Source: Volutella citrinella
Lineage: Eukaryota > Ascomycota > Sordariomycetes > Hypocreales > Nectriaceae
DNA length: 64,000 bases
NCBI GenBank assembly: GCA_034401135.1
Contig: JAWZSP010000002.1
Coordinates: 5,208,001 to 5,272,000 of the forward strand
Reading direction: 5' to 3'
Shown here: one piece after another, positions 4,017 through 47,012 of the stretch
Layout of the letters: the number at the start of each line of letters is the position of its first letter
How positions within the stretch are numbered: position 1 is the stretch's first letter
The notes under the pieces: generated by a model
Databases searched by the model: none
What the model saw: the letters and a program-made list of their open reading frames with translations, nothing else
What the model was told of the DNA's origin: nothing
Translations under genes and position numbers: made by a program

Positions 4017-4017
4017 G

Positions 4018-26112: not shown

Positions 26113-26746
26113 GTTGAGAAAGGTTGTGGGACAGGAAGCGATGCGCAGGAGGGAATGGGAGCAAGACTGCCACAGCAGCTGCAAGGGTACTGGTGCCTCC
26201 ACGACACTACCTGGGTAGGTACCCCGTGGGGTCGGTGGGCAAGGTCCTAGGGCACCCAAGGCGCTAAGTTTTAGCAGGTAGTCGCCCTGCCTTTACTGGT
26301 TCTCATCACTGCGCCCACTCTCACCTACTCTCAAGCAGCATCTCGACCTAGTCATTTGAAGCGATTCAGCGCAACTCACGTTTACACAAGCTTTCGGGTG
26401 CCGAGCGCAGCCCGGGGTAGATCTCTTTGTCGTCAATTTGTGCACGAGCGTTTTCCTGGCTCGCCGGTCTAAGCCGTTGCAGACTGATTTAGCCTAGGAT
26501 CCTGCTGATGCCCCCCTTTGAATGCCGAGGTTGCCTCGGTTACTTATGACTTGGGTGTCGGAAGGCCGTCCGTGGTAGGACTAGTAGAGACGAGCATTGG
26601 AGCGATATAGGGGCCTCATGGGCTGAACACCTCCAACCAGTCGCAGGGCAATCAAGATATGGCAACCTGGAGAATCCCTTGATAGTGTATTTCTTGGTCA
26701 TGTAATCCTAATAATGTCAAGTGCTTTCTCTACCCCGCAACAAGTC
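26113..26746. other. Intergenic region, no gene recognised
   Basis: About 630 bp upstream of the regulator and downstream of the CoA-transferase. No gene recognised; it should hold the regulator promoter. Confidence 0.4.
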
Positions 26747-28346
26747 TCAGGCGGCGGACACGACGCCTTCCTTCTCCAGCGACTCGGCTTCCTCAGGCCC
26801 AAAGCCAAGTTCCGCGACGATCTCGGCAGTGTGTTGGCCCAGACGGGGTGGCTCACTTCGGATGCTTGGCGTCGTTCTGCTGAACTTGACTGCTGGTCCT
26901 ATGAGGTTGAGCTTACCAGAGACAGCGGCATCCTGTCGCACCTCGGCCACCATGTCTGTTGCATGCGTCTGCGGGTGAGCGAAAGTTCTTTCCATGTTAT
27001 TGATTGGCGCAAACGGGAGACCAGATGCCGTAAAGACGTCGATCCATTCCGCAGTAGACTTAGTTTTAAAGATGGCGCTGAATATGGGTTGGAGCATCTC
27101 GCGGTTCTCCACCCTCCTGGGGTTCGTATTGAATCGTTCGTCTGCCGCGAGGTGGTCGAGTCCCAGCAGCTTGCAGAGTGACGCAAACTGGGCGTCGTTG
27201 GTAGCACCGCAGACGAGATACAAGTCCTTGGTCTCAAAGGCATCGTACGGGGCAATGCTAGGGTGCTGGCAGCCCCATCTCTCCGCCTCTTTACCCAAGT
27301 TCAGCCACCAGCTGCCGACGTTGGTAAGGAGGCTGATTTGTGTCTCGAACAGTGATGCGTCCACCCGCTGGCCGACGCCATCACGCGCGCGGGCAATCAG
27401 TGCAGCCAGAATGGCTCCGTGCAGATAGAGCCCCGTGGACATGTCGATGACTCCAAGACCAGGCCGGACGGGAGGGCCATTGCGCTGGCCCGTCAGGTGT
27501 AGCAGCCCGGCCTCGGCTCCGGCGATGGGGTCATAACCACCGCGGTTGGCATATGGCCCTTTTGTACCATAGCCTGTGGAATATAAGACTACTACTTGCG
27601 TCCCCGACGCGGATGGGGTGAGTTTTCTGCTTACCGGAAATGCTTGCGTATATCAAACCTGGGTTGTGTTCTTTCAGTCGATCGTAGCCGAGGCCCAGGC
27701 GATCCAACGTCCCCGGCTTGAAATTTTCGACTCTGAGCAACACCCCAGCCGTCAGCCACCGCCGCGAGAACATTTTGGTCTCGATTTTGACTCACACGAC
27801 GTCTGCTTTCTTGGCTAGACTCATAAAAATCTCCTTGCCTGTCGGGTGTTTCAGGTTCAGCGCAAGAGACCGCTTGTTACGGTTGATGGCCGAGAAGTAG
27901 TTGGACATTGGCCCGGCTTCCTTCTTCCACGCTGATTCCTCACCTGGCACCATCCAGTGCCTTGTGTCATCCTAAGGCCCTTGCTGTCAGCTCGCAACCG
28001 GTGCGCCTGCATGTCAATGAACCAAGACGTACCCCTTGCCCAACGGCTTCTACCTTGATGACATCCGCGCCATAGTCAGCTAGGATTTGGGTGCAGAACG
28101 GGGCCTATGTAATGTGCGTCAGTTGAAAACTCTGAGGGCCATGCCTATATGCAGCAAGTTAGAGTAGCTTACAGCGAGAACTCTTGAGAGATCCAGAATC
28201 CGCACGCCCTTCAAAGCAGCATCAGGCTTTGGGGAATCGCCGTTGGAGGCTGACGTGAAGTGCCTTGCCCAAGTTTCCATCAAGTGGTGAGAACTCAGGG
28301 ACGGCGCTGCGACGATGCGTCGACCAAGGTGATAAAGAGGCCTCAT
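26747..28346 (-). CDS. Class III CoA-transferase (CaiB/BaiF), SUGCT-like, mitochondrial
   Basis: Transfers CoA from a donor such as succinyl-CoA to a carboxylic acid. Exons near 28174-28346, 28030-28104, 27790-27960, 27630-27770 and 26747-27580 give a normal-length family III protein. The basic N-terminus [19 protein letters not shown] looks like a mitochondrial presequence; then [27 protein letters not shown] and the core [28 protein letters not shown]. The Asp of GGYD is the expected acyl-accepting catalytic residue. The closest animal type is SUGCT, succinate-hydroxymethylglutarate/glutarate CoA-transferase. Lying next to an acyl-CoA dehydrogenase and a mitochondrial carrier, it probably performs the activation step of a mitochondrial acid-degrading pathway. 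Confidence 0.85.
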
Positions 28347-28770
28347 CTTGGCAGTTGATGCGTCTTATTGGCCTTGAATTTGCCGTCTGCAATAGCAACA
28401 AGATTGTGGCGGACGGAGAATATCATTTGTAGATTCCATGCCCAAATCACTCCAGGGTCTTAACCCGGGATTGTTCCGGGCATGGAGCCTCCACTCCCAT
28501 GGACTGTGCCCGCATATATCTAATAACCTCGGATAGATATATGACTTCGGGAGTCATATCTGTTGTGATGTCCGACCTCGGTGATCAATGGGCATATCGA
28601 CCCCGCCCTACCAAAGAGCGAGCAATGATATAAAAAAAGAAGGGAAATGTGAATACACGCTTTGCTCTTGATTCGGAGACCAACTATTGCAACTTCATTC
28701 TGATTTGGTTTAACACGTGTATCTAGGAATGGAAGGTTCAGACAACCATCAGGGTAGATGAACAACTCTT

Positions 28771-30051
28771 CTAATAGCTCTTGGGCAAGCCCAGGACCCT
28801 CTGCCCAATGTAGTTCTTGATCATCTCGCCACTCACTGGGGCGATGCGTGGAAGCATGGCTTCTCTCAGGTACCTCTCCACATGATACTCCTTGGCGTAT
28901 CCCATGCCGCCGTGGGATAGCACAGCCCTTTCAGCAGCCTTGAAGGCAGCCTCGGCGGCCAGAAACTTGCCTGCATTGGCATACTCGCCATCTGCGTAAC
29001 CTTGATCGTACAGTTTGGCGGACAGGTACACCATCAACCGAGCGCTCTCGAGTTGCATCCAACACTCGGCCAACGGGTGCTGAATTCCTTGGTACTTTCC
29101 GACAGGCTGACCGAAGACGACCCTTTGGTTGACGTATTGAGCAGTGCGGCGAAGAGCGGCATATCCGATCCCTAGAGCTTCAGAGGCTACGAGGACGCGC
29201 TCCGCATTCATGCCGTGCATGATCATCTTGAACCCGTCGCCCTCGGCTCCCACCCTGTCCTCGGCAGGCACTTTCCAGTTGTCAAAGAAGAGAACGTTGG
29301 TGTCGACTGCGTTTCGGCCCATCTTGGGAATCGGGGTGACTTGAACCGCGTCCCTGTTGAGGTCCGTGTAGAAGAGGGACAGGCCTTGGGTTGGCTTCTG
29401 CACTTGATCCAACGGCGTCGTCCTGACCAGGATCAAGATCTTGTCGGCAACTTGGGCCGTGGAGATGAACGTCTTGGAACCGCTGACAAGGTAGTGGTCG
29501 CCCTCTCGCTTCGCAGAGGACTGCAGTCGCAACGTGTCCAGGCCAGTGTTGGGCTCGGTGACTCCGAAGCAGGCACGCTCCTTGCCTTGGATGAGGGGGG
29601 GGAGCCAGCGCTCTCTCTGTTGGTCGGTGCCAAACTTGGCGACGGGCTCCAGGCCGAAGATGTTCATGTGGACCGAGGACGCGCCGTTCATGCCTGCACC
29701 GGACTCAGAAATTGTTTGCAGCATGACGGCGGCCTCTGAGATGCCCAGCCCGGAGCCGCCGTACTCGGTGGGCATGCAGATACCGAGCCAACCGTTGGAA
29801 GCGAGATCTTTGTACAGCTCCCATGGAAACTTGTGCTTGGAATCCATCTCCATCCAGTACTCATCCGTGTAATTGGCGCATATCTGGGCAACAGCCTCAC
29901 GGACAGAGCGCTGAGACTCACTCCAGCCGGGAACGTCCGTCGGGAGGTAGTCGGTGGCGCGAGTGTGGATGAAGCGGCTCGAAGGTCGGAGTGCTTGACA
30001 GATTCGAGACGTGCTCGGCCGCAGACGAACGCCAGATACTAGTCGCTGCAT
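28771..30051 (-). CDS. Acyl-CoA dehydrogenase, mitochondrial
   Basis: FAD enzyme that introduces a 2,3 double bond into an acyl-CoA. From the start at 30051 it has 426 residues; MQRLVSGVRLRPSTSRIC is an arginine-rich presequence. Family blocks: TEYGGSGLGISEAAVML, ACFGVTEPNTGLDT (FAD/substrate loop), KTFISTAQVADKILILVRTT, and a C-terminal HGGMGYAKEYHVERYLRE. The usual catalytic Glu of the C-terminal EGT motif is not present (APVSGE near 404-409); instead a Glu sits in GMNAERVLVA at about 284, the place used by isovaleryl-CoA dehydrogenase. This points to a branched or unusual substrate. It lies about 0.4 kb upstream of the CoA-transferase on the same strand. Substrate remains inferred. Confidence 0.88.
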   Translation of the reverse strand: MQRLVSGVRLRPSTSRICQALRPSSRFIHTRATDYLPTDVPGWSESQRSVREAVAQICANYTDEYWMEMDSKHKFPWELYKDLASNGWLGICMPTEYGGSGLGISEAAVMLQTISESGAGMNGASSVHMNIFGLEPVAKFGTDQQRERWLPPLIQGKERACFGVTEPNTGLDTLRLQSSAKREGDHYLVSGSKTFISTAQVADKILILVRTTPLDQVQKPTQGLSLFYTDLNRDAVQVTPIPKMGRNAVDTNVLFFDNWKVPAEDRVGAEGDGFKMIMHGMNAERVLVASEALGIGYAALRRTAQYVNQRVVFGQPVGKYQGIQHPLAECWMQLESARLMVYLSAKLYDQGYADGEYANAGKFLAAEAAFKAAERAVLSHGGMGYAKEYHVERYLREAMLPRIAPVSGEMIKNYIGQRVLGLPKSY

Positions 30052-30482
30052 TTTGGGGGAGACGGCAGATGAGAAGGAGATTTTGAGTTGCATCCCATGA
30101 CGATCATTGGAGTAGCATACGCGGAGGCAATAAAAAGAATCATTCCGAGGCCTTATCCGGCCGTGGTAGATGGATGCACGCACAATGGCCCTCGTAACTA
30201 GATCGGCCAATTTCTGCGGATGGGCGGAGGCCAGGAGCAAGAAGCAGTAGCCGAGGGGACCAACCCTCTCCATTGCCGAGGGCTTTAATTTGTGTACCAA
30301 CACGACGAGTGACGGAATGGGTGACGGTGATTTGGTGAGTCAACCAACCCCGGTAGCCGCCTTATTGTTAGGGGCCACCACAACATACTAGTTACTTTCC
30401 ATCGTTTCTTATTAGTTGGACGAGGCTACTGTGAGGCCCTCGCCTACCATCAAGTCACATTTCACCCCGGACAGTCTGGACA

Positions 30483-31499
30483 ATGGGAGCCTCAATCTTG
30501 CAGCGACAATCACGAGAGTCACTCAAGGCAATAATCGATGGAGGGTCGCCATTCGTTGTGGGCTGCGGCGCTGGTATGATTGCCACTACGTGCATCCAAC
30601 CCATAGACACCATCAAAGTCCGGATGCAGCTGATGGATCACAGTCACAGCACAGGCAAAGCATCGCCTTGGTCTGTTGCCAAGGGCATCATCAGGCAGGG
30701 AGGCGTCCCGAACCTGTACCAGGGTCTGTCAGCAGCGCTGCTCAAGCAATTCGTCTACGGCACCATGAGGATGGGCCTGTTCTCGACCTTTGAGCGCCAC
30801 CTGGACCAGAGAGCTCGCGAAAAGGGACAGAGTCTCGGCTTTGGCGGCAGGGCCCTCGCCGGCATCAGCGCAGGCAGCATCGCCGCTCTGGTCGCGAACC
30901 CGACTGACGTCGGACTGGTCCGGATGCAAGCCGATGGCATGAAGCCGCTGGAGCAGCGGAAACACTACTCTTCTGCATTTGACGCACTGAGACGCATCTC
31001 CCGCGAGGAGGGAGTCCTTGCGTTGTGGAAAGGCGTCACACCGACCGTCATTCGGGCCATGTCCACCAACTTTGGCCAGCTTGCCTGCTTCTCGGAAGCA
31101 AAGCACCAGATTGGCAAATATTCACATCTCTCTGGCCAAGTTCGCACAGCCCTTGCTGCTGCTGTGGCTGGCCTGGCCGGTACAGTTGTGAGCCTCCCGT
31201 TCGACTTTGTCAAGACCAGGCTGCAAAACCAGTCCATGGCGTCCACCACCAGCATCCCCATGTACTCGGGCACTCTGGATTGCTTTCTCAAAACCATGCG
31301 GAAAGAAGGTCCCCTCAGATTCTATCGCGACTTCTGGCCATACTTCATGAGAGTGGCACCCCACTCGTAAGCTCTCCCCCCTCCCCTCTCTTTGGGGGCA
31401 CTCTCTTTCGCAGCCGTGACCTCACACCACTACCTTAGAGTAATCGCTTTATTCCTTGCAGACCAAGCCAATGAATACATTAGATCTCGTCAATGGTAG
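30483..31499 (+). CDS. Mitochondrial carrier, oxoglutarate/dicarboxylate type
   Basis: SLC25-family inner-membrane exchanger of about 315 residues in two exons (30483-31366 and 31439-31499); the second restores the usual C-terminus VIALFLADQANEYIRS. All three carrier repeats are present, with signatures PIDTIKVRM, PTDVGLVRM and PFDFVKTRL; the middle one lacks the usual basic residue at its last position (PTDVGL). The layout and lengths resemble the oxoglutarate/malate carrier. It is transcribed away from the acyl-CoA dehydrogenase, with 431 bp between the starts. In this setting it may bring the dicarboxylate substrate, or an exchange partner such as malate or 2-oxoglutarate, across the mitochondrial membrane. 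Confidence 0.88.
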
Positions 31500-31680
31500 G
31501 GGAGAAGGGCTAGGACTTTGCAAGAAAGCGGTCGTTAGTTGTGTTGTTCTCGGTGCGATCGACTTCGCATCGCGAGCATCTTGGACATGCAGTAGACAAT
31601 ACACAGTAGTTCAAGACAGCGAGCAGAGAAAAGAATACCCAGACAATGTCTGTCGCATTTGTACGTTGGGAGACTAGTAT

Positions 31681-34309
31681 TTACCCTCCCTGGAAGAAAC
31701 CCAGAGCTCCCTGAAGGAGACGGTCCCACTCTCCACCGTCCATGTCCAGAACTAGGTTGGCATCATGGTCCTGACTATGCCATCGGAATGTGCGCAGGGT
31801 AGTGGGTATGTCGTCAACCGAAGGGAGATGGCCATTCGTGAGAGCGTAGTCAACCGTCATGGCGATGCGGAGAAACACGGCTGGCTGGCTGAGGAAGACG
31901 TCGACCCAACTGTTCTGCGGGTGCAGAAGCACCTGTGTGTCCCTGTGCGCCGCCGTGGATACCTCGTCAGTCTGAGACCAATGAGTAATATGATCCAATC
32001 GTTTGAGTTCTGCAATTTCGTTGTCTGTAACATGGTCGACAATCCTCTCTACAGACTGCAGCATCGTGTTCGTGCTCTCGTAGAGAAACTGGAACCTCTT
32101 CATGATTTCTGTGTATACCTTCAAAACTCTTTGGGTTCTGTACGAAGCATCTCGCCTCCTGGTCAGTGTTGCGTCGAGCAGGTCCCATGTAAAGGGGGCC
32201 GCTGAGAATTTGATGCTGCACTACTTGTCAGATGGACCACGCAAGCTTGCCGTCTCGGACCTCTCTTACAACGTATTGGGAAGGAACTTGGCAAGTCCTA
32301 AGCACTCTAGTTCCACCAGATCATCCGTGATGCTGCACAGCGACTGGGTCATTTCTTTCTGGATTTGGAGACGGAGGCTTTTGCGGTCGCCTTCCCCGTG
32401 GTCCTCGAAGGATGAGCTAAGAAGCATGTGATTGCAAAGGGAGGCTTTTGCTGTGCTACCGTCAGACGTTAGTGACCATTTGTGGTGCGTTGGGGTGGAC
32501 AAATTACTTGTAGTATATGTATGTCATGTTGGTGAAGAGAGTCAGCGACCGGTGTTGCCCTGGGACTGATGTCGACGGACGGAATGTTGCAAATGCTTTC
32601 TCATACCACCTGTCTAGGGCTTCTGACCATGTCCCTAGTTCTTCCACCGTCGGCTGAGCCTTGGTGGCGCCGAGGGGAGATCGAGGGTAGATGGTTTCTA
32701 GAATGTTATTGAGCGCAACTGCGAGCTCGCACATGGTTCCGGCAAGCTGCGCAAGGGCTAATTTAGTCATCGAGTCGTACACCCTGGAATAGTCAAACTC
32801 GTCCCTGAAATCATCTTCCACGAAGCCAGGTTGACTAAAATCAAAGTCCTCCGGCCCAATGTGCAGATGCTCACGAAGTGCAAGAGAGATGATACGATCC
32901 CTCAGGATGCAGCACCACCAGAGCCGCTTGAGAGTGGCTTTCTTCTGGGAGCTGTCCAAAAGCATGTGCAAGTGGGCCTTGGCTCTTTTTGCGTGGTGTA
33001 TAGCGGTACTGAGCCAGAACGTGTTGGCCGTGTCGGTCTTGTAGGCTGTGTGATAGGTCAACATGAGCGAGCCTTGAGCCTTTGTCACGTCGTCCAGACC
33101 GGGGTATAGATCAAAGAGAAGCTATGGATCTTCATGAGTATTTTTGAACGAGCAATTGTAGGTTTGAGTCAGACCTTGGCTCGCTTGTAGAAACTGTTGC
33201 TCGCATCTTGGACCGTCTCAAACCCGAGACTTTGTAGCGCTTTCATAGGCACAAACTATAAAGCGTGTTAGGCCTCGTCCAAAGTGGGAGAGAGAGCATA
33301 GAATTGAGAGGGGCAATATGTACCGGACAGGCTATGAAGAGTATGGCCTGGAAGAGGAATATATTGATGTTCTGCCGAGACGTCCGAGAAGAGTAAGTTT
33401 GCATGAACTCTCGTTCATTCAAGAGAGGGAGCATTGGGTGGATATGCATGAAGTAGTGTCTGATGACTTCGTCTAGAACACCCTTGGCAGGGATATGGAA
33501 GCAACCGGATTGCTCCAAGAACTGTGATGTGCGGCAATCAACCCGCCAGAGACTATCCGCCTCGAGAAACCGGTAGGTGGAGAAGAGCACGAACGCGCCG
33601 CTGCGGTGCAAACAAGACTCAGCTGAATTTGCAAAGTCCTTATCTTCGTCCGCGTTCACATTTGCTCCGGGACCGTTGCGGCCCAGTAGCTGCAGTTGTG
33701 GCGGACCAGGCAGCTCATCGTCGGTTCTCTGAAACGCGAGTTTCTGGTTATGACTGAAGCTGTCTACCAGGGTTGAGGTCTTGGTCTGTTGCCTGGTATC
33801 ACCGTCATGGGTTGGCGCCTGGATATCGGTGATATTTGGAGTACCACGGTCTTTCTGCGCCCCGGCAGAACGCTTCTCAATGTTGGATTGAGGGTTGTTC
33901 TGTGGAAGCGCTGTATGTTGACGTGTTTTACTTTGCTGTCCAGTCTGTCCTGCACAAGACTGTTCCTGGGGCGTCTGCTCTTGGGCTCGTTGCTCCTGTT
34001 CAGATCTCCTGTGCCATGAGCGGACGTTAGCGATGAGGGCCTCGGAATGTTGGCGGGCGCCAAGGACGGGCAGGGACATCACCATTTACGAGTCTCCCGC
34101 GGCTTGACGGAGCAGTCCTGGTCGTCGAGTTTGCAGTTCGTACATGGGGTACCGCGGAGCACGACGTCGCATCGTACTTTGCGGGCATGGCAGGGAATAC
34201 AAGCTCGTCTGGCGCGCCTCCTGATCCTACGATTGCCATTGCTTTCGGGGTTGATAAAGTCCGACGGCATAAGATGGAGCTCAGCCTGACGCCCCGACAT
34301 GTCCGCCAT
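31681..34309 (-). CDS. Second Zn2Cys6 transcription factor, CTF1-like
   Basis: A multi-exon regulator. Exons: about 34083-34309 (zinc cluster), 33345-34008, 33170-33252, 32505-33120, 32281-32460 and 31681-32215. The cluster RACIPCHARKVRCDV plus CTNCKLDDQDC has exactly the cysteine spacing of the regulator at 23.5-26.1 kb, so the two are related. A Gln/Thr-rich linker (RRSEQEQRAQEQTPQEQSC) precedes the fungal-specific domain (IRHYFMHIHPMLPLLNEREF, LKRLWWCCILRDRIISLALR). The C-terminal exon reads ILHPQNSWVDV-like sequence and ends LLQGALGFFQGG. It sits between the carrier and the reductase genes and is a likely pathway regulator. The start at 34309 (MADMSGRQ) is inferred. Confidence 0.85.
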
Positions 34310-34728
34310 TGACTCGTGACACCCTGAGTGAGCAGGATTAGCCTCAGAGATGGTTTTTATGTGGGAGAGCTTCGAATGATTGTACATATATGGATGCGTG
34401 GGTACTTGCGTTACCCCGCGGAAGTTTGCGCTGTTCATCCGTCGATGGGATTGATATTATTAGCATGTAAGGCGATCGGTCCATCGGTGGGGCACGCATG
34501 GGGGGTCGGCCCACGCTTCAGCTCATTTTGATAGCCTCGGCAACTGGTGAAACCAACTCAACAATTGCTAGACTTCATCCTATGGACCCAGGAGGACCCA
34601 TTACGGCACCAGAGCTTTATAGTTTGTTCCCCCATCAGCCGCCAAGAGAAGACTAAGGCTGTCCTACCCTAGCTAATTTTCATAGTCGGGGTTGCTTGCT
34701 GAGTTGAAATACGAGTATTGTCTTTTCA

Positions 34729-35895
34729 TCAAGATGCTTCACCGATTCTATACACGAGCTTCGCGCCCTTGACCTTGCCCGCCTCCAGATCCCGCAAACC
34801 CTCAAGCACACCTTCAAGTCCACCGTCGCGGATCTGACACGCATGCGGACGTAATCGACCCTGTACACCTCACTGTTATTAATGTCCTCTCAGGTGTGGC
34901 TTTCTGGGGATTCGTACCTGCAACAAAAGCTCTTCCGTGAGGCTATAGAAGGTGCAACCAAACTCAAAGTCTTCACGACTGGCTGGCATGTCAATAGTGC
35001 CAAACTTGAAGTCCCGGCCAAACACGGTATACATAACGATCCAGCACGTCTTGACGTCTCCCCTGGGCATCTTGACAGGCAGAAGCGAGCCGTAGACGGG
35101 ATCGAGAGCGGAATATGTGGTCAATGCATCGGCGCAGATCTTTGCCGTACTATCGATGCTGATGGTGTCCCACGCATGTCTGAGGCCGTTGGTCGTGAGG
35201 TCGCGAATCTTCAAGCCGACATCTTCTAGTGTGTAGTCAAGCGCAACGTCCGCCCCGAGGCTCTTGACGTAGTTGATGTGCTCCGCCGCGCATGTCGTTA
35301 TCACGGTGTAGCCAGCCCTAAGAAGGAGATCAGTGAGTCTAGTCTACAACCAGAAGAGTCACACTCACTGCTTGGCGTATTGTATTCCCAGGGCCCCCGT
35401 AGCAGTGCCGCCGCCGTAGATGAAGATTGCCGTATCCTTGTCCTGAATTCCTGTGACGGCGGGTAAATCCAGCTTGAGCGCTTTCTGGAACAATCCTTGC
35501 CCGACTGTGATGGACCCCAAACCTACAGTCGCTGCTTGTTCAAAGGTGAGCGAGTGGGGGATTCTCATTTGCAAGTCTCCCACAACAGCTGCTCGTTCCG
35601 CGAAGACGCCGTCATCAGGGTTCACGAGGTTGGCACCGTGGCCGCAGCCAAAGATGCGATCACCGGGCTTCCATCTCGTCACGGCGCTGCCGACCGACTC
35701 GACGATGCCGGCGTAGTCACAGCCAACGATGCACCCATCCCGGGCACGTTCGTTTTTGATGTGCCTCCAGTCGGTTGGGTTCAAGGCAACAGCAACCGGT
35801 CGGACGAGGACGCAGTCATCACGCAGCTCAGGCACCCGCCGCGAGGGATCGACGCGTGCGTGTTTGCCGCTGATGACGATGGCTTTCATGGACAT
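34729..35895 (-). CDS. Medium-chain zinc-less reductase (ToxD/enoyl-reductase-like)
   Basis: NADPH-dependent MDR-family oxidoreductase in three exons (about 35368-35895, 34912-35316 and 34729-34860), giving close to 350 residues. The cofactor motif reads YGGGTATGALGIQYA; substrate-domain blocks are VALNPTDWRHIKNERA, GCDYAGIVESVG and GDRIFGCGHGANLV. No structural zinc cysteines are visible, as in fungal ToxD-like and trans-enoyl-reductase proteins. The last exon ends AKLVYRIGEAS. The start at 35895 (MSMKAIVISG) matches the family; an in-frame ATG at 35988 would add a basic, presequence-like extension. It lies in the CoA-catabolic neighbourhood and may reduce an alpha,beta-unsaturated intermediate. 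Substrate unknown. Confidence 0.82.
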
Positions 35896-36403
35896 GTGTC
35901 GTTGGTTGGAATAAGGCGAGGAGGCGACGCTCATGAGACGTCTCTTCATGTGTGAGGTCGCGGCTCGGGGCAATCGGTATCGAAACATGGCCAAGGACAG
36001 ACAAGCAGGAAGAAACCTGCAACTCACGAGACGGCCAGACGACGTGTTGACAGTGTTTTGGCTTTCTGGATTTACGCATGTTGTTCGTCTTGGCCATAGC
36101 ACGCCAATAAACGACCACGATTCTGCTCAAGCATGTCATACTCGGCCCTCGGTATCCCCTGGACACGCGACAGTCAAAAGGTGGGAGAGATTGCCGACAG
36201 CGAGCCAACCTTTCAAGGGGCGGTTGCCGAGGGGCGGGGCTTTGGGGGTCCCCGGCTAGTGGCGGGCTGCAGGAGCGGAGCGGACATCAAGACCAAGCCC
36301 GCTTCCCTAGTAGTGATGATAGACAAGGCGAATGGTTCCGTTCAAGTCTGTGCCGAACCACTTACTGCCTCTTTCCCAAACACCAGACCTCTCAGTTACC
36401 AAG

Positions 36404-38387
36404 ATGCTTTCTCGACATTGCCGCCGTGGTGGCCATCCTCTCCCATCGCTCTCCACACCACCCCACCTCTTCTTCTCATCAAGTAGCAGAGAGCCGGCAG
36501 TACGCATCGTCGAAGTCGGCCCGAGAGACGGCTTACAGAATATCAAACAACTGGTGCCCCGGGAGACCAAGGTTGAGCTCATCAGGCAGCTGGCCGGAAC
36601 AGGCTTGCGCGACATTGAGGCGACGTCCTTTGTGTCTCCAAAATGGGTACCGCAGCTGGCAGACGGACACCAGGTGATGCAAGAGACACTACGATTCGCC
36701 CAACAGGAGCATCATGGTGCCCAAATCAACTTCCCGGTGCTGGCACCAAACCTCAAAGGGCTGCAAAGTGCCAACGCTGCCGGAGCCAAGGAGATTGTCG
36801 TCTTCGCGTCCGTCACCGAAGCCTTCAGCAAAGCCAATCAAAACTGCACAGTTGAAGAGGCCCTCCGGCAAGCCCGTGCCGTAACCACGCAGGCTTTGTC
36901 TCTCGGCATCAGAGTTCGAGCGTCAGTCATGCCATGCCTAGAGGGCGAGCGAGCGAAGCTGGAAATTAATCATCCGCTAAATTATACGTAGGGTCATCTC
37001 TTGCATCTTTTCCGACCCCTTCTCCGGACCGACGCAACCTCAGGACGTCTTGCGTGTGGTCCGTGAGTTTCTCGACATGGGCTGTTACGAGGTCGGACTC
37101 GGGGACACTCTTGGCGTTGGAACGCCCAAGAACACCCAAGACTTGTTGGAAGTCCTTCTCCGGGATATTCCCGCCAAGAAGCTGGCCGGACACTTTCACG
37201 ACACGTATGGCCAGGGTGTGGCAAACGTGTTCCGCGCTTACGAAATGGGCATTCGAACGTTTGACGCCAGCGTTGCCGGACTCGGCGGGTGCCCGTACGC
37301 CCCCGGTGCCAAAGGGAACGTGGCCACGGAAGACGTCGTGTACACGCTCGAGAAATCCGGCATCGATACCGGCGTGAACTTGGCAAAGCTCGTTGAGACG
37401 GGCCAGTGGATCTCGAGCCAGCTGGGAATCCCCTACGGAAGCAGGGCGGGTGCAGCACTCACTTCTTCCAAATCTACCTGGTCGCCAGGAACACAAACAA
37501 AAAAGCCAAGTCGTCCTGCGAGTTCGAAAAGGTCATGGGAGCTTGTAAAAGACACGGGCGAGTATCGTCTGTCGCGGTCCGGCACAGCTCTCAAGATCAC
37601 ACTTACTCGGCCAAAGATGGGCAACGCCATGACGGATTCCATGCTCCGAGGACTGACGGATATCTACCAGAGCCTTGCCGAGGACTCTTCTACCTACCAC
37701 GTCATTCTCGAGTCGGAGGGGAAATACTTTTGCACTGGCATGGACCTGAGCGGGGAGACAAACACCTCAGACATGGACATGTCTGGGCAGTCCAACTACT
37801 ACCACAAGGTCGCCGACCTTTTCGACGCCATAGATGGCGTTCCACAGACAACCATTGCCGTCGTCGACGGGCCATGCTTCGGTGGCGGTGTCGGGCTTAC
37901 CTTTGCTTGCGATGTCCGCATAGTCTCGCCAAAGGCCAGGTGGACTCTGAGCGAGGTCAAGATCGGAGTCAGCCCGGCCGTCATCTCCAAGTTCCTCGTG
38001 CGCGAGTGGGGAGCCTCGATGGCGCGCGAGGGCATGATCTCCGGACGCGAAATCGCACCCGAGGAGCTCTGGCGCATCGGCGCAGTTCACTCCATCGTCG
38101 GACCCGACGAGTCCCTGGATGCCAGGCTCAACAGCTATCTTGACCAGTTGGAAAAGGCAGCCCCTCGGTCGGCGTCAATCAACAAGGAGTTGACCAGGGT
38201 CGGGTGGTATGGCCCGGAGAGCAAGCGCCAAGCTGACTTGATTGAGAAGACGTTTGCCAACATGGTGGCACCCGGTTCTGAAGGAGAGCATGGCATCGGG
38301 AACTTCCAGAATAAGGTCAAGGAATTTAGCTGGCGGGACTTTTGGGGCACGAAGAGCCCCTATGATAACACAAAGGGTCAAGCCTAG
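36404..38387 (+). CDS. HMG-CoA lyase / enoyl-CoA hydratase fusion, mitochondrial
   Basis: Two exons (36404-36921 and 36992-38387) give 637 residues with two enzymes in one chain. After an arginine-rich presequence (MLSRHCRRGGHPLPS), residues about 35-345 are an HMG-CoA-lyase-like aldolase: VGPRDGLQN, DIEATSFVSP, metal-binding HFHDTYGQG and the active-site Cys of GGCPYAPGA. A Ser/Lys/Pro linker (SSKSTWSPGTQTKKPSRP) leads into a crotonase domain: FCTGMDLSGE and DGPCFGGGVGLTFACDVRI form the CoA pocket and oxyanion hole, with LSEVKIGVSPAV following. Hydration then cleavage of a 3-methylglutaconyl-CoA-like ester to acetyl-CoA plus an acetoacetate-like product is the simplest reading. Both halves look intact; frame is continuous through the junction. 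Confidence 0.85.
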
Positions 38388-39475
38388 ATAGATGCCAAGG
38401 CTCACTGGGGAATGAAGATGAGAAAGAAGAGGCGGGCAAGTACAACAGTCAGTGAATCCAAAAACGTCGACGTTACACATATTGGCGAGAAGCCAGCTAG
38501 CAACACATCTCCATGGACTCGGCCAGGTCTCTCGGTTATCTCGGCAATGGCCGGAGCCGAAGCCTCCGAATGAACGGGGTTTGGGGTTGATGCCCGGGGA
38601 CAACCATTTTCGAGGGCTAATGTATCCACCGTGATATTCTGATAGGCACCAACTAGATCTAAGAAGTGCTGAGGAGTATTCCAATCGAGTTTGTTAGGCT
38701 CACGTCACTTGGAGAGTCTCTTCGCCGCCTGCCGGGGATTGACACTGGAACCTACCCTAAGGTCCATAAATCAAGATGTTAGGACAACCGCCAACATAGA
38801 GGCCGAGATGGGTGAAGACACCATCATTCTACCGTTGCTTGAAGGTTGACCCGTCCTTCGCTTGAAAGGCAGACGGAAGAAGTAATCACAACTTGGAGAG
38901 GCTATGCGGCCAAGACAGTTGAAAGTCTGGCCGGTCAGAGCCCGCATGGCCCATCCCATGAGCTGGTGTGTGTGGGGTCTCATCATTGATTACCAACGTA
39001 CTATAGCGGCAACCTTCCCGGCCCGAGTGCTCTGCTGCGAGTCGTGTCTCCGGTGGTCTTGGCGCCCCATCCAAAGTACCTTATTGACCTCGACGACTTC
39101 GACCCCGCTGTTGCTTGCACCTTTGTGTTGCGGGAGGAAATCGCTGGCCAAGGGCATGATTCATGAAAGACTTGCCGGATTTCCCCGTTCTCGTGCGAAA
39201 CCTTTGCAATGGGCGACTTGTGGAAGTATTTAATTGAGCGGCATCACTGATAACAGTTTACCCTTGGCTGTCCACTGTCAAGGGGGGCACGATATCCAGC
39301 AGAATGATGTGACGTCAAGTAGCCAAGGGAGTAATTGTATTCGCGGCACTGCTAACAAGGATTCAAGGGGCACCTGAAATCTGCAGCCTGCGGAGCCCTA
39401 CTCCAGCAGCTATCCAGAGCATCCTTAGTGTAGCAATCCTCCCGACTGTGCTGCCCGGTAATGCTGTCAGTCGCA
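38388..39475. other. Intergenic region with a possible decayed coding fragment
   Basis: About 1.1 kb between convergent genes. On the plus strand, 39065-39240 encodes a run beginning APHPKYLIDLDDFDPAV, broken by TGA and then resuming with FAMGDLWKYLIERHH. It looks like protein, but I do not recognise it. No intact gene is present. Confidence 0.3.
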
Positions 39476-41435
39476 TCACTCCTTGCCGGCCACCCTAGCG
39501 TCATGGGCAAGAACTTCCACGTGGATTGCAGCTTCCTTGTTCTCGCTGGTCTGACTAGTCTTCTCGTCCTCCAAGGCTTCAGAACCATCGCCCAATGCGC
39601 GGTCCATCTCCTCTAGATGAAAACCTCCTGTCTGTGAGCCATGTCAGTATTTTGCGTGCTCGACACTGCATCCCGGGCAAAATGCAACCTACATCTGGGA
39701 GATAAAAGACCATGTGTATGGTGTGAAAAACAGCAAGAATAACAAAGATCAAGTAATACTTCCATCCAATGGTCGCTGTGGCGGTGGGCAGTAGGTTCAG
39801 CCAAAGGATGTCCGCCAGGAACAGGCCACTGATGGAGATGGCTGATGCCTGATTCCGAATATGGGTAGGGAAAATCTCAGTCGCAACAGTGAACTGGTTC
39901 AAATCGACGAATGAGTTGTAACTGTAGGTGTACTCTGTCAGCCGCATCCTTCCTTGCAAGGGTCCGGGACTGGGTTGGATCTGGATCTTACACCACCACA
40001 AACAGATAAATCATGGCTGTGGCACCAGCTGCCCAGCCCTTGCTTGGTGACATGTTGTATTTGGCAATCATGGCTGTCAGTGTTGCAAAAACAGCCGTGA
40101 TCAACACATATCCTGTTACTTTTCCCAGTTAACTTATTAGTGTGTAGGTGTAATTGGGCTGAAAGCAGCCGGCAACTTACTCAGGCACTTCCTCCGACCC
40201 AGGCGGTCCGCGATCAAGCCGCCGATGCAAGCTATAAACAAACCTATGGTATTATAGACAGCAGAAAGCAAGAGGGAGTTGGTAGGGCCCAGTCCAAGTG
40301 AGCGGTACAGGAGAACGTTGTAGTTGTTAATTACCAGCGGGCCGATGTTTTGGCCACCAACCATGACGAGCCACCCGAGTATGAGTCGATTGCGGTTCTT
40401 CTTGTTGGTGAAGAGCCTCCATCTCCCATCGGTGCGAATAATATCCTTTTCGGTCTGGCATCTCTCTACAATCATGCGGAGTTCTTCACGGGCAAAGTCG
40501 TTGTTGGGGTCTCCCGGAGCGTGGTGAAGGCGAATCAGGATCTCGAGGGCTTTTTCATGGTCGTCATGTTGAACAAGGTACCTTGGGCTTTCCGGCACTA
40601 CAACAAAGTAAGAACCATCTCAAAATTTTACAGATTGGTAATTTGAATGTACCGTAAAAGGAGCCTGCGAGAAAGCAGAAGCCTGAAAGAACGACAATGG
40701 CACACGGGAAACGCCAGGCAAATTCGGATTCAGGGGTGAAGTAACACCCAAATCTGGCTCAGGCACAGCAATCAGCAGGGAATAAAGTGGCCTACCTGCG
40801 AGGGGGGAACCATACCCTATCCATCCCGCCATGCAGAAGCCGACATTGATGAAGATGGCGTGTGCGCCGGTAATCAGCCCGCGAGAATGAGGCGGCGACA
40901 CTTCCGCAAAGTACGTCGGCATGGCGGCCATGGTGTGGCCGGCAGCCAATCCTGTAATGGTCCGCGAAACCAAAAACTGCGTTGTGCTCGTCAATAATAA
41001 GCGAGGGGGGTCGCAGAAGCCAAATAGGAAATGTACGCACCATTGCTGGCGACAGTGATGCGCATTGGAGGGTGCCTCCGGTGATGCCAATCGTCGCGGC
41101 TATCCGGAAACCATTTACTCTGCCAAAGCGATTGCCAGCCCAGCCGGCCAAGAAGCAGCCGAAGAAGCCAGCACCGAAGAAGACGCCGTTGGCTGCTCCG
41201 ATAATATCGCCGGTGTAGCCATACCCGGGTGCCTTGGGGTCAGAGACAAGACCGAGCGAGGAGTAGAAGGTTGGCTGGCCGATGGTAAAGGCGAAGACTG
41301 CTAAAGAGTAGCCAGTGAAGAGTGAGCCAAAAGCTGCAAAGCACACAACCTGCAGAGCATCAGGAAATGGTCACGCAAACAGGTGGGCCTGGTTGGTGTG
41401 CTTACCGCGACGTTATACCATGTGTACTCTCCCAT
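39476..41435 (-). CDS. MFS sugar-porter-family transporter
   Basis: Twelve-helix permease of the plasma membrane in about eight exons, from MGEYTWYNVA (41435) to a cytosolic tail ending VLAHDARVAGKE. Sugar-porter signatures: GRVNGFRIAATIGITGG, the central PESPRYLVQHDDHEKA, DRLGRRKCLS after helix 8, and EIFPTHIRNQASAIS near helix 11. The acidic tail HLEEMDRALGDGSEALEDEK is typical for fungal lactose/quinate-type members. It could import a sugar or, given its neighbours, an organic acid. Sequence inside the gene looks intact, and the introns are each 50-90 bp with GT-AG ends where checked; several junctions were only placed approximately. Confidence 0.8.
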
Positions 41436-41849
41436 TGTTGCAACGCGTGATATTTCAGTGAGCGGAGAAAGAGTAAGCAGAAGCCTCCGAGATGGGGACA
41501 AGCGTAATTCATCATCATGCAAAAAGATCAAGGTGGAATATATACACCGCAAGGCGGGTCATCAATTTGAAGAATAAGAGGACTGACTGGTTGCTAATCG
41601 GTAGTAGCCGAGGGTACCGGTGACAGAGAGCCGGTAGTACGCACTGCAGGCAGGTTCCTAGGATTCCGGGGACCCCACAGCCGCGCCGGATCAATGATAC
41701 TGGTCACGACTGGTTGGGATGGTACCCTCCACCCCAGAAAGCGGTCCTGGCACGTCGGTTAATATGCACCATGGCGCACCTCAGCTTTAGTCACCAACCA
41801 GGGGCCCAATCTCGTGGGCTTCTCCTCGTGATGCTCGGTTTCTGTTGAC

Positions 41850-42361
41850 ATGTCGTATACCATCGAGTACAACGCCAGACGCTTCACCGGGGAGGAGAAG
41901 CCTTTGTGGTGCTGCACTGGCACGTCAATCCCTAGACCATAGCCGGTGCTTCAGCAAGCAAACAAGTCAACAATACCAATATCAACATTCACTAGCACGC
42001 ACACTCAGGAGCCAGCTACGGATCTATCTCAGAGGCGAGACCTCTGGATCGCTGCATATGGAGGGCACGCCGAGATTGTTGAGATTCTTGCACAAGACGA
42101 GTGCGTCAATGTCAACTCACTATCCGCCTCGGGTCAATCCGCGCTGCCAATGCCTTGCGCTACGGGTCGCCACGATATTGTGAAAACGCTATTGGGTGCA
42201 GGGGCAGAAACACATTTTGTCGACGACGAAGGATGGAGTGCACCTGCAAAAGCTAAGTGGCACAAGCATGTCAGAGTTGTTGAGCTCTTGAAAGCAGCTG
42301 GGCGTTCTAGGGTCCGCTGGGTTTTCGGAAGCTCGTCCCGCTCGAGCTGGCTCATAGCATA
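41850..42361 (+). pseudogene. Ankyrin-repeat protein remnant
   Basis: The frame from 41946 holds about two and a half ankyrin repeats: DLWIAAYGGHAEIVEILAQ, then SALPMPCATGRHDIVKTLLG with GAGAETHFVDDEGWSAP, then VRVVELLKAAG. In front, an ATG frame at 41850 (MSYTIEYNARRFTGEEKP) ends in a stop at about 41940 before joining. Two expected repeat residues differ from consensus (LPMPCA in place of the usual LHxAA). The piece is too short for a working gene and looks like a decayed fragment of a larger ankyrin protein. Confidence 0.5.
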
Positions 42362-43154
42362 GGCATAGCATAGGCACTATCTGGGTTGGATCCATTGGAT
42401 CCAAGGACAAGGGCAAAGCTGTTGCCTTGTTCGATGAGTAGTAGAGTGGGCAGGATACTTACAGGGTGCAATAAGCAGTGTATGCCGTACAACCAATACA
42501 CCTGAAATGGATCAATTAGTTCATCTAGCTCTGCAGCATGATTCTATTGACCACTGGCCGAGATACTGCGTCCTGCTCCATCCCCTTGTCGCTCATCAGT
42601 TGCCCTAGATAGAGACGTTTAACTGGCATGGGCAGCCTGGAGTGCGGCCGCCCAACGGTCTGGACTTTGACGAAATATAGAGCGACTTGCAGGGCTAGCC
42701 ACTTTCGGGAGTTATTCCTTCAAAAGCCTCTTTGTTAGAGAGCACGCTCCTTTTTTGTTAGCCTCCGCCCTAGAAAGGAGAGATATGTTAGCTAGCTCGT
42801 GATGGCCAGGAAGTAGCGGCGACGCCACCCCCCACCCTTCACAACAGATCCTACTCTCTTAGCCCCAAAATGCCGTTTTCCCATAGCAAGGCAGTTGTAA
42901 AGGAGGATTTGGATCCCAAAACTATAAACGTCATTAACACTGCCTGCTCAATGGAGAAGCAAAGCGGATCGAGGCTAGGCGAAGCAAGGCTAGATGGGAT
43001 CTTGCGGCTGAGAGTTCAATTTTCGCGGCGCCCGGCCAGGCATCCTGTCTCTTCACGGGTGTATTAGGAGCACTGCCCGCCTCCTACCTACGGTTTCAAC
43101 CCATCACTCACTACTTCACACGTCAGCCCTATTCCTCCTGCGAGCTACGACCTG
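42362..43154. other. Intergenic region, no gene recognised
   Basis: About 790 bp of mixed sequence upstream of the acyl-CoA oxidase. Small frames occur, none convincing. It should contain the oxidase promoter. Confidence 0.4.
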
Positions 43155-45188
43155 ATGGAAGGCCTGGAAAATAGACAGATGTGCCTTATGCGCCGTGCGC
43201 GTAATACGGCCAGATGTAAGACGGACCAGCTGACCAACATCATCCACGGCGGCGACGACCAAGTCTGTCTCAAGCGGGCGGCATGGGCTCGAGTAGAAGA
43301 TGCACTCGGAACCAGCGACACATCCAGGCTGCCGACGCAGTACGCGCACACAAGTCGGGAGGATCTCTACTTGGAAGGTCTCGTCTCGGGCAAAGCTGCG
43401 TGGGACGATATGATAAAGTACAACCACAACCTCTTCGACACCCTCACGCCTCGGTACCAGCTGTCCAACGCAAGTCCGTTTGGGCTGACAGGGATCCTCA
43501 TCAAGCCGACGCTCAAGCAGATGGCGACGCCCGAGCAGCAGCGGAAATGGCTGGATCCGACAAACCAAGGCCGCATCAACTGGGCATTCGTCCAGACCGA
43601 GCTGGGACACGGCACCTTTGTACGCGGCATCGAGACGACGGCGACGTTCGACGGCGACTCGGACAGCTTCATCATCGACTCCCCAACGCTGACGTCGACC
43701 AAGTTCCTGCCCGGGTCACTAGCCTTCTCCTCGACGCACATTGTACTGATGGCCGCACTTATCATTGCCGGCAGAGATCACGGCCTGCATGGTTTTGTAG
43801 TGGAGATTCGCCATCCAGACGGTCGAGTCGTGGACGGCATTGAGCTGGGAGACGTTGGCCCCATGGCGGCATACAATCAAAACGACAACGGCTACGCCAT
43901 CTTCCGCAAGGTGAGGATACCACGCGGCAACATGTTGATGGCGCACGCCAGCGTCTCCCGTCAAGGTGAATACATCAAGGTCGAGACCAGCCACGAGAAG
44001 AGCTCCTACGCAAGCATGCTGTACGGGCGTGTGGGTGTGATCCGCGCGGCAATGTTCCAACTGGCCCAGGCCACGACCATCGCGGTCCGATACTCGACTG
44101 TGCGCTGCCAGGGCTACCTAGCCTTCTCGGATGAGGCAGCAATGCCCGAGGAGGTGCCTTTGATGCGCTTCAAGTCTCAGCACCAGCGCCTGCTCACCTC
44201 CCTCGCCAACGCCTACGCCATGGTCTTTGCCTCGCGACATTGCGAAGCCATACACGCCGACTTGGAGCGACGAGCCAGAGTGGGCGATCATAGTACCATG
44301 GCCGGCACCCACGCCCTGCTCGCCGGAATGAAGGCCTGGACTACGGCCATTGCGTTTGAGGGCGTGTCTGATATGCGCAGGGCCTGCGGCGGTCACGGAT
44401 GTCTCGCGATATCCGCCCTGCCTGACATTGTCAACTCTGTCGACGCTCTGTGCACGCTCGAGGGTGACAACGTCGTCATGCTACTGCAGACGGCGCGGTA
44501 TCTGATCAAAGTCGCGGCAAATCCGCCAATGCCACTGTCAGAGGATTTGAAATACTTGGACCCTGCAAACTTGCGGGATATGGCCGATGGAGCAACTCTG
44601 CGCCACCCTGCCTCCTCCTCTATCGACTATCAGACTCTCTTTGCCCGGCACTCCGCCGCGCTGCTCTCCAAGGGGCACTCCTCTCTCCTCAGCTCAACCT
44701 CAGCATCAGCATCAGCATCGAAATCCGGCTCCTGGAATCGATATACGCCCCTGCTTCTTACCATCGCTCGCGCTCACATTCTGTACACCATCCTCCGCCA
44801 CTTCCACGCCGCCGCCTCCGCCGTCTCCGACCAAAGTACCCGCGAGATCCTGACGCAACTTTACCACCTCTTCGCACTAACCCACCTCTCCTCGAATGCC
44901 TCAACATTCCTCGAGCACAACATCATCCATCCCGAGGATCTGGATAGTATTCAGACGCGAAAGGATGAGTTGCTGGACAGTCTTGTCCCGGAAGCCATTG
45001 CGCTAGTAGATGCCTGGGATTTCAGTGATGCCAGCCTAGCGAGTGCCATTGGGATGTGGGACGGGAATGCCTATGGGCGGTTGATAGGGTGGGTAAGGCA
45101 GTTGGGGACGAATGTTAATAATATAGACAAAGACCAGAGCCGGCGGAGGATCCTAAGGGCGAGTACAAGTATAACTGCAAAGTTATAA
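43155..45188 (+). CDS. Peroxisomal acyl-CoA oxidase
   Basis: Single-exon flavoprotein of 677 residues, the family's usual length. It would oxidise an acyl-CoA to the trans-2-enoyl-CoA, passing electrons to oxygen. Blocks: NWAFVQTELGHGTFVRGIET (FAD-binding), LHGFVVEIRHPDGR, RRACGGHGCLAIS, and the catalytic Glu in LCTLEGDNVVMLLQTARYL near residue 440. The C-terminus is AKL, a recognised variant of the peroxisomal targeting signal SKL. A short serine/alanine repeat (SSTSASASASKSGS) lies near residue 520. The short N-terminus lacks part of the helical domain of yeast Pox1. It marks the right-hand edge of the catabolic neighbourhood and adds a peroxisomal oxidation step. Confidence 0.88.
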   Translation: MEGLENRQMCLMRRARNTARCKTDQLTNIIHGGDDQVCLKRAAWARVEDALGTSDTSRLPTQYAHTSREDLYLEGLVSGKAAWDDMIKYNHNLFDTLTPRYQLSNASPFGLTGILIKPTLKQMATPEQQRKWLDPTNQGRINWAFVQTELGHGTFVRGIETTATFDGDSDSFIIDSPTLTSTKFLPGSLAFSSTHIVLMAALIIAGRDHGLHGFVVEIRHPDGRVVDGIELGDVGPMAAYNQNDNGYAIFRKVRIPRGNMLMAHASVSRQGEYIKVETSHEKSSYASMLYGRVGVIRAAMFQLAQATTIAVRYSTVRCQGYLAFSDEAAMPEEVPLMRFKSQHQRLLTSLANAYAMVFASRHCEAIHADLERRARVGDHSTMAGTHALLAGMKAWTTAIAFEGVSDMRRACGGHGCLAISALPDIVNSVDALCTLEGDNVVMLLQTARYLIKVAANPPMPLSEDLKYLDPANLRDMADGATLRHPASSSIDYQTLFARHSAALLSKGHSSLLSSTSASASASKSGSWNRYTPLLLTIARAHILYTILRHFHAAASAVSDQSTREILTQLYHLFALTHLSSNASTFLEHNIIHPEDLDSIQTRKDELLDSLVPEAIALVDAWDFSDASLASAIGMWDGNAYGRLIGWVRQLGTNVNNIDKDQSRRRILRASTSITAKL

Positions 45189-45394: not shown

Positions 45395-46761
45395 TTAGAC
45401 ATCTGCTTGGATGATATCAAAAGTAGAAAATCGTCTTGCAGGGACCTTGCTTTCAAAAAGAATGTCCAGATCCGCTACTGTCCGATTAGTCTCTGGAACG
45501 AAGAAGTATGTCCAGACGACGTAGAGGATACTGAAGCTACCATAGATGAAGCCAGTATATCCCTGTAGGTGAGCGGCGTCTGGGTTGATGAGATATGTCA
45601 CGACAATATTGTTGATAATGACAAAGGTAAATTGACCAGCCGTTGCGAGAGCGATCATCTTTGCCCTCAAGACCGAGCTGGGCACCTCGCTCATGATGAC
45701 AGTAGATAACGGACAGAGCAACCCGCCGTAGAAAATATTCCACACCAGCATCAAGCCTCCCTGGGCCCAAGCGGCTGTTGTCTTCTCGTAATAGCCTGGA
45801 GCAATTTGAGCAAGACCAACGGCCATGAGCACGGCCGCACCCGCAGTCTGGCCCCCGAGGTACAGAATGCGACGTCCGTATGCCGGAATAACGACGAGGC
45901 TGATGATGGAACCGAAAAGCGCGGCACAGTAAATTCCAACCGACATAGTGAAGGCTGCAGGGCCTAGACCGGCAACTGTGTAGTTGAGCAGGAGTTAGTG
46001 ACGTGGACAGAAGCGAGTAACAGCTGAGGACATCATACTCGAGAGGAATAGGGGGCTACTGCCAATGAAACAGCTACCAGCATTGACAATGACGCTGTAC
46101 GTGCCGACGGAGATAATAGTTCGACGTAGGTTTGTGCCCTTGAAGCAATCTCCGTATCTCGATGAGGTATTTAAATCCCTCTCGGTTCGATCGACGTCGG
46201 CAATTTGTTCCAAGGTGGGGACCACGTCGAACCCCTTGACAGCAAGCCTTGTGAGGGAAGCTTTAGCCTCTTGAGCTTTGCCATTTCTTACCAACCACCA
46301 GGGACTAAGATACGATTAGTCCTCTCGATTTCCTTTTTTGTTAACCCCTTAGGAAAGGAGATGGATTACCTCTCTGGTGCAAAAAAGGCCAAACGAATGG
46401 TCAGGGCGGGCCAAAGCCATTGATCAACGTAGCCACCAAGGTAGGACCAGCGATCCGTCCTACTGTTGAGGCCCGCAGCCACAGCAGTCCCGAGAAGCTG
46501 CCCAACAATGATTGCCAGGCTGGAAAAAGTATTGACAAAGCCGCAAAGGGCCGTGGTATCTTGCAACCTCAAATCTGGATGAACAACGCAGGTCCAGATG
46601 ATGACTGTATTGCAAGTTATACCAAGGTGAATCAGGTTAGGCTTCGGGAGACTTCTATCAAATACGACCCGAGGCGAACTTTCCAGGAGCTCTGTGTTGG
46701 AGGATATAAGATTGGCAAATAACTGATAGTTTATAATATAAACTGAGAGCTCTCTGAGCAT
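45395..46761 (-). pseudogene. 5'-truncated MFS alpha-glucoside-type permease
   Basis: The C-terminal two thirds of a sugar permease of the fungal maltose/alpha-glucoside group. After helices around SLAIIVGQLLGTAVAAGL and WLWPALTI, introns join to the central PE-SPWWLVRNGKAQEA motif, then YSVIVNAGSCF, GSIISLVVIPAYGRRILYLG and PETNRTVADLDILFESKVP. The first four or five transmembrane segments expected in a complete protein are missing; the sequence upstream of about 46500 no longer resembles a permease. The coding part that remains is mostly open, so the truncation may be fairly recent, or a 5' exon is beyond my recognition. Confidence 0.6.
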
Positions 46762-47012
46762 AGCGTCTGCGGATTCTGCGCGACGGCAAGGTTCACAGTA
46801 AGGGGTTTATCTAGAGGACGGCCACAAGTGGCGCCCTTCGGCATCTCCTCTCGACCTCTTGTCCCCAAAAAGAGGGAGGGGACCAATTTTATTCAGTACG
46901 TGCCATAAGATTGCCTGAAAGGTTGCCTGTTAAGCCACTATACGTTTGTCTATATTGAAATGTCAAATCAAATTATTCCTTAGTCAACTTAATTGATCCA
47001 CGTGTTTCAGCT
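46762..47012. other. Short intergenic region
   Basis: About 250 bp between the truncated permease and the 2EXR-like gene; no gene recognised. Confidence 0.4.

Follow-up and report, generated by a model that had tools for sequence, protein, structure and literature searches.

Leucine breakdown ends in 3-methylglutaconyl-CoA hydratase followed by hydroxymethylglutaryl (HMG)-CoA lyase, and the chief context in which 3-methylglutarate and 3-methylglutaconate are known is human metabolic disease, as waste products. The acyl-coenzyme A (CoA) dehydrogenase encoded in the itaconate clusters of Cupriavidus necator and Pseudomonas aeruginosa has been demonstrated to act as a methylsuccinyl-CoA dehydrogenase (PMC12290011, PMC9875883). 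For Aspergillus, the main text of PMC6320622 describes an itaconate degradation (IctA, IchA, CclA) in which CoA transfer is followed by hydration and cleavage, with a proposed location in mitochondria; the genes of A. niger are not clustered and that main text contains no mention of 'acyl-CoA dehydrogenase'. Here we describe a locus of the fungus Volutella citrinella that lies in a window of 64 kb (the whole stretch of DNA analysed, from contig JAWZSP010000002.1) of the 45.1 Mb genome (26 contigs); its spliced genes and the best relatives with names are in keeping with a filamentous ascomycete. Four genes, spanning 26747-38387, form its core and encode a class III CoA-transferase, an acyl-CoA dehydrogenase, a mitochondrial carrier and an HMG-CoA lyase-hydratase fusion. 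From the sequences we infer that the cluster probably serves to break down, in mitochondria, a six-carbon dicarboxylic acid with a 3-methyl branch, for example 3-methylglutarate. The original prediction for this DNA had proposed a larger cluster for a branched dicarboxylic acid; the observation was confirmed in part, with these four genes retained as the core while the acyl-CoA oxidase, permeases, reductase and regulators were not, and the pathway interpretation is supported in part.

In the proposed pathway the carrier would move the acid (or a counter-ion) over the inner mitochondrial membrane, and the transferase, as its family suggests, would pass CoA from succinyl-CoA to the acid. The dehydrogenase, judged by its bacterial kin and neighbours, would convert 3-methylglutaryl-CoA to 3-methylglutaconyl-CoA. 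Family and conserved residues suggest that the C-terminal half of the fusion would hydrate this to HMG-CoA and that the N-terminal half would cleave HMG-CoA to acetyl-CoA and acetoacetate. 3-Methylglutaconate or HMG could join the same line at later steps; of the four activities, all would be needed for a saturated 3-methyl C6 diacid, three for 3-methylglutaconate and two for HMG.

A lack of linkage in other fungi had been named in the original prediction as a refutation, and this refutation failed: on shared contigs or with close gene numbers, the genes for CoA-transferase, dehydrogenase and fusion are neighbours in many filamentous fungi, though not universally. Each core enzyme was searched against approximately 5.8 billion sequences, with some 8,000 candidates scored per search and the best 120 listed, and linkage was judged from shared contigs, gene numbers and one merged gene model. 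Co-location was scored by equal size of the source contigs, the size being the longest given for each 90%-identity cluster. The listed relatives are closer to the window proteins than the genome's own paralogues for the CoA-transferase (54-81% identity versus 37-49% for the three best other loci) and the dehydrogenase (68-85% versus 56-57%), with a small overlap for the fusion (53-73% versus 47-54%). Among the best 120 of each, 35 contig sizes are common to fusion and CoA-transferase, 22 to fusion and dehydrogenase and 28 to CoA-transferase and dehydrogenase; 13 are common to all three enzymes and 59 to at least two, 16 of these 59 being at most 45 kb and the smallest 4,930 bases. When the sizes were shifted by 1 to 50 bases either way as a control, the means were 0.12 to 0.19 per pair and the maximum 2. 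A contig is shared with a partner by 44 of the 120 fusion entries (14 of the 60 on contigs of at most 45 kb), and for the others an absent link and a partner beyond the best 120 are indistinguishable. As a common long contig does not by itself prove neighbourhood, gene numbers were compared wherever two or three core genes share one numbering scheme. Those of at least two core genes fall within 10 of each other in 18 of the 21 comparable genomes, and they are consecutive in Fusarium torreyae (NW762_012784/85/86) and Neopestalotiopsis clavispora (G7054_g4445/46/47). In Sporothrix bragantina one gene model (P0020) joins the carrier to the fusion and is numbered beside the dehydrogenase and the CoA-transferase. 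The carrier portion of this model matches the window carrier at 63% identity (180/285 columns); the next most similar carrier of the Volutella genome reaches 52%.

The fusion, which had been read from the DNA as an HMG-CoA lyase joined to a crotonase, is genuine. Exon 2 (36992..38387) is one open frame that holds the end of PF00682 and then PF00378, and both domains are present in all 120 of the best relatives listed. The lyase part passes the NCBIfam cut-off for HMG-CoA lyase (380 bits versus 246) and, aligned to human HMGCL, retains the catalytic motifs GPRDG, HxHD, GGCPYA and GN. By resemblance the hydratase part appears LiuC/AtuE-like. Its nearest NCBIfam matches are PRK07468 (139 bits, cut-off 350) and gamma-carboxygeranoyl-CoA hydratase (116 bits, cut-off 426), the latter being the top match with a named substrate, and a putative isohexenylglutaconyl-CoA hydratase ranks second among its solved relatives; both names denote 3-substituted glutaconyl-CoA-type esters. 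Glycine occupies the position of the first catalytic glutamate of classical enoyl-CoA hydratases and the second glutamate is retained, in TLSEVKIGVSPAVIS. Among the solved neighbours, the putative isohexenylglutaconyl-CoA hydratase has GGGFGL and the crotonase 3i47 has GGGAGL. The resemblance to AtuE and to gamma-carboxygeranoyl-CoA hydratase would also suit a longer 3-alkylglutarate or a terpenoid-derived diacid, by analogy with the citronellol (Atu/Liu) pathway; the fusion would then cleave a 3-hydroxy-3-alkylglutaryl-CoA. Such a substrate seems highly unlikely, given how closely the lyase aligns with human HMGCL and that in several fungi the gene numbers allow few extra genes between fusion, transferase and dehydrogenase.

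The CoA-transferase is assigned by resemblance to the class III family, SUGCT type, with PF02515 above its cut-off, exon by exon. Its nearest solved relative is human succinate-hydroxymethylglutarate CoA-transferase (SUGCT; 373 bits, the next protein scoring 302), and the alignment covers residues 44 to 429 of 448, with retention of the catalytic aspartate. Within NCBIfam, a library built for bacteria and archaea, the top match is succinate-glutarate CoA-transferase at 338 bits, short of the equivalog cut-off of 750. Well outside the cluster, at 60834-62705, an open frame of 623 amino acids also resembles class III CoA-transferases (PF02515, profile positions 1-210). Glutarate was rejected as the substrate, as HMG-CoA lyase would have no use: glutarate breakdown does not involve this enzyme. 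A more serious candidate is HMG itself, which appears in the name of the transferase's closest solved relative and requires the transferase and lyase alone. HMG esters are common in plants, and HMG from plant or fungal conjugates could be the main natural substrate, with the dehydrogenase and hydratase extending the range to reduced or dehydrated analogues. We nevertheless consider this unlikely, since the dehydrogenase, needless for HMG alone, recurs as a neighbour (the 22 contig sizes shared with the fusion and 28 with the transferase) and the hydratase domain is joined to the lyase in all 120 listed relatives.

A role for the dehydrogenase on a 3-methyl-branched diacid is suggested by its relatives. 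The conserved glutamate of its HGMNAER sequence (NAER motif) is aligned to that of the ER motif in isovaleryl-CoA dehydrogenase from this genome, a residue that serves as catalytic base in the latter enzyme. The two proteins are 28% identical. A scan of bacterial and archaeal genomes, in which the bacteria sampled were those matching fungal peptide patterns, gave 65 loci, 59 close and 6 distant. The close loci (55-63% identity) are all from Proteobacteria, judged by record title and the placement of the genus; Rhodococcus and Natrinema are represented among the plasmid matches. Of the 59 close loci, 31 have a class III CoA-transferase match no more than 5 kb from the dehydrogenase and 10 no more than 300 bases from it, 5 kb of sequence flanking the gene on either side in only 39; none of the 6 distant loci, the sole comparison set for this rate, has such a match. 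The row in Pseudomonas agarici (L077), an operon of itaconate/methylsuccinate type, consists of IclR, dehydrogenase, CoA-transferase, CitMHS, MaoC/mesaconyl-CoA hydratase and HpcH/HpaI lyase, and its dehydrogenase is 59% identical to that of the window. These neighbours and the P. agarici operon suggest that the window dehydrogenase is kin to methylsuccinyl-CoA dehydrogenase and of the branched-diacid type. Four of the 230 plasmid records matching the dehydrogenase were examined: two have an adjoining CoA-transferase, a third an adjoining CoA ester lyase with no CoA-transferase in the stretch, and the fourth (Polaromonas) neither adjoining gene, with biotin carboxylase and carboxyl transferase in the stretch. 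In a tree of 42 chosen rows, with the root drawn for display only, the fungal dehydrogenases and the genome's two paralogues form one group (100/99) among bacterial rows. The gene may have been gained from bacteria by transfer, with which the tree is consistent without proving it.

The window cluster is one of several parallel modules in the genome. A second HMGL-crotonase fusion (C2:4389469-4391357; L019/L020), 47-54% identical to the first, starts almost at the lyase domain, without a presequence, and has the C-terminus SKL. Near it are a biotin carboxylase, a carboxyltransferase and an AMP-ligase whose reading ends ARL; the biotin carboxylase reading ends VVE, with no peroxisomal signal. 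From the end signals this locus is probably a peroxisomal counterpart module, and its gene set would suit a monocarboxylic substrate, for instance 3-methylcrotonate. That a substrate which is already a dicarboxylic acid makes a carboxylase unnecessary, as the original prediction argued, gains support from this comparison: the window fusion adjoins instead a SUGCT-type CoA-transferase and a dehydrogenase whose bacterial kin are frequently beside CoA-transferases. No carboxyltransferase (PF01039) match was found within the window, the three genomic loci all being elsewhere.

As the hydratase and HMG-CoA lyase are the final two steps of leucine breakdown, the locus might alternatively be a duplicated leucine-degradation segment, in which the CoA-transferase and dehydrogenase are neighbours by coincidence or have unrelated acids as substrates. 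This is very improbable: the isovaleryl-CoA dehydrogenase and another carboxyltransferase are together on contig C1 and a standalone HMG-CoA lyase is on contig C4, and linkage of the core recurs far above the offset control. The proposed module for a 3-methyl-branched diacid is set apart from the other loci by the presence of CoA transfer and dehydrogenation and by the absence of carboxyltransferase, MaoC (PF01575), HpcH/HpaI (PF03328) and MmgE/PrpD (PF03972) matches, none of the last three being found anywhere in the window. On contig C6 (1061-1071 kb; L041/L042) a carrier, a dehydrogenase paralogue, a CoA-transferase and an HpcH/HpaI lyase occur together in what looks like a five-carbon version of the same logic, a candidate itaconate/methylsuccinate module. 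The other dehydrogenase paralogue, 81% identical to the copy on contig C6, is on contig C5 (3379-3385 kb; L043), close to a Fungal_trans regulator and to a frame whose FAS1_DH-type match falls narrowly short of the cut-off. Itaconate was rejected as the substrate of the window cluster, in which neither MaoC nor HpcH/HpaI is matched; the loci on contigs C6 and C5 are better candidates for it.

Presequence-like N-termini had been noticed on the three CoA enzymes, and their basic excess is seen both in the window proteins and, on average, in their relatives. Basic and acidic residues among the first 35 number 4 and 1 in the CoA-transferase, 7 and 1 in the dehydrogenase and 5 and 1 in the fusion. 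Over the first 30 residues of the first 24 listed relatives the mean net charge is +3.7 for the fusion, +4.1 for the CoA-transferase and +5.0 for the dehydrogenase, the lowest single values being 0 (fusion) and -2 (CoA-transferase). Judged by this charge, the core enzymes would be mitochondrial. The carrier, predicted to be of dicarboxylate type, is indeed a mitochondrial carrier; that type is plausible, the nearest solved relatives being UCP2 and UCP1, followed by an ADP/ATP carrier and an oxoglutarate/malate carrier.

Several observations weigh against a dedicated route for a 3-methyl-branched diacid. To our knowledge 3-methylglutarate is not an abundant compound. The CoA-transferase, dehydrogenase and hydratase reach no NCBIfam cut-off, so that their assignments are by resemblance. 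The core is unlinked in 3 of the 21 genomes compared by gene number (Fusarium ambrosium, Penicillium pulvis and Sporothrix eucalyptigena), and in Sporothrix stenoceras the listed dehydrogenase is far off, with fusion and CoA-transferase close together. Within 5 kb of the 59 close bacterial dehydrogenases there is no HMG-CoA lyase match, and an HpcH/HpaI lyase match in P. agarici alone, the latter from an insensitive search with a single fungal query at E 1e-8. Five loci (L061, L069-L072) carry an HMG-CoA lyase 8-9 kb off together with biotin carboxylase and carboxyltransferase matches (5-9 kb), and in three more (L054, L055, L060) a carboxyltransferase-like match at 29-32% identity is separated from the dehydrogenase by 1.3-2.3 kb. 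Gene sets free of carboxylase are thus not the only setting of this dehydrogenase family. In L054, L055 and L060 a CoA-transferase match lies between the dehydrogenase and the carboxyltransferase-like match. HMG-CoA lyase is also not listed in four CoA-transferase plasmid regions, from 555 matching records and with an incomplete gene table. The full enzyme set for the C6 acid was not seen together in the bacterial loci and plasmid regions sampled.

The genes of the window are collected in the table below; the models were made from the DNA only, with splice sites picked by eye from the GT-AG rules and the reading frame. The acyl-CoA oxidase, originally counted within the mitochondrial cluster, was set aside as a member: it starts approximately 4.8 kb past the fusion and ends in AKL, by general rule a peroxisomal signal. 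The two Zn2Cys6 regulators are related, as had been claimed, sharing 28 of 44 residues across the zinc-cluster region, though the second falls outside the range originally given for the cluster. A short ankyrin-repeat frame is found at 41943-42362, between permease and acyl-CoA oxidase, and a Sugar_tr-type frame at 45395-46806, where the 5' part gave no obvious complete gene. A stretch at 4001-6000 is AT-rich, with 29% GC compared with 53-54% in the adjoining 2 kb steps.

Table. Features of the core and its surroundings, in window positions (aa, amino acids).
Feature	Position	Strand	Model	Standing
Class III CoA-transferase, SUGCT type	28346..26747	minus	448 aa, presequence-like N-terminus	core
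CoA-transferase exons (5)	28346-28173, 28104-28033, 27971-27796, 27732-27635, 27573-26747	minus		
Acyl-CoA dehydrogenase	30051..28771	minus	426 aa, single exon	core
Mitochondrial carrier, three Mito_carr repeats	30483..31499	plus	314 aa, exons 30483-31366 + 31439-31499	core
Zn2Cys6 regulator	31681..34456	minus	several exons, partial model	between carrier and fusion; associated
Medium-chain reductase (ADH_N/ADH_zinc_N)	34879..35895	minus	exons 35895-35369 + 35317-34879	between carrier and fusion; not supported as core
HMG-CoA lyase + LiuC/AtuE-like crotonase hydratase (putative), one gene	36332..38387	plus	661 aa, one 70-base intron 36922..36991	core
Sugar_tr-type permease	39579..41370	minus	approximate span, partial model	not supported as core
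Acyl-CoA oxidase	43155..45188	plus	677 aa, C-terminal AKL	probably not in pathway
Second Zn2Cys6 regulator, Fungal_trans domain	23515..26292	minus		outside the originally predicted range

More tentatively, the locus may represent an undescribed fungal route, and the first dedicated to 3-methylglutarate, in which a branched-diacid-type dehydrogenase of proteobacterial type is combined with a fungal lyase-hydratase fusion in the mitochondrion, opposite a peroxisomal twin with carboxylase entry. A published description of this fungal cluster was not found in the open-access literature searched, which does not prove that there is none. If the proposal is true, it would reveal how 3-methylglutarate and 3-methylglutaconate get recycled and supply enzymes to detect or make them, and a single logic of CoA transfer, dehydrogenation, hydration and cleavage would serve diacids of differing length. 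It would also give a role to a fusion that in many fungal records bears only the name 'hydroxymethylglutaryl-CoA lyase'.

Compared with the known systems, the window CoA-transferase is like human SUGCT over nearly its whole length, but sits in a fungal cluster with a dehydrogenase and a lyase. The cluster shares with the leucine (Liu) pathway a putative 3-methylglutaconyl-CoA hydratase and an HMG-CoA lyase, here fused; unlike that pathway it has neither an isovaleryl-CoA dehydrogenase-type enzyme nor a carboxyltransferase, and entry is probably through CoA transfer. The Aspergillus IctA/IchA/CclA route, compared by description only, differs in its five-carbon chemistry with a citramalyl-CoA lyase. 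With the itaconate/methylsuccinate cluster of Pseudomonas and Cupriavidus (PA0878-0886 type) the window has in common a CoA-transferase and acyl-CoA dehydrogenase, a hydratase and a carbon-carbon lyase, which in the window would likewise act on a branched diacid, while the crotonase-HMG-CoA lyase fusion (PF00378, PF00682) replaces the MaoC-type hydratase and HpcH/HpaI lyase. That the window lacks an isomerase fits, because 3-methylglutarate is prochiral. The parts belong to known families, and their logic follows that of the methylsuccinate route in bacteria.

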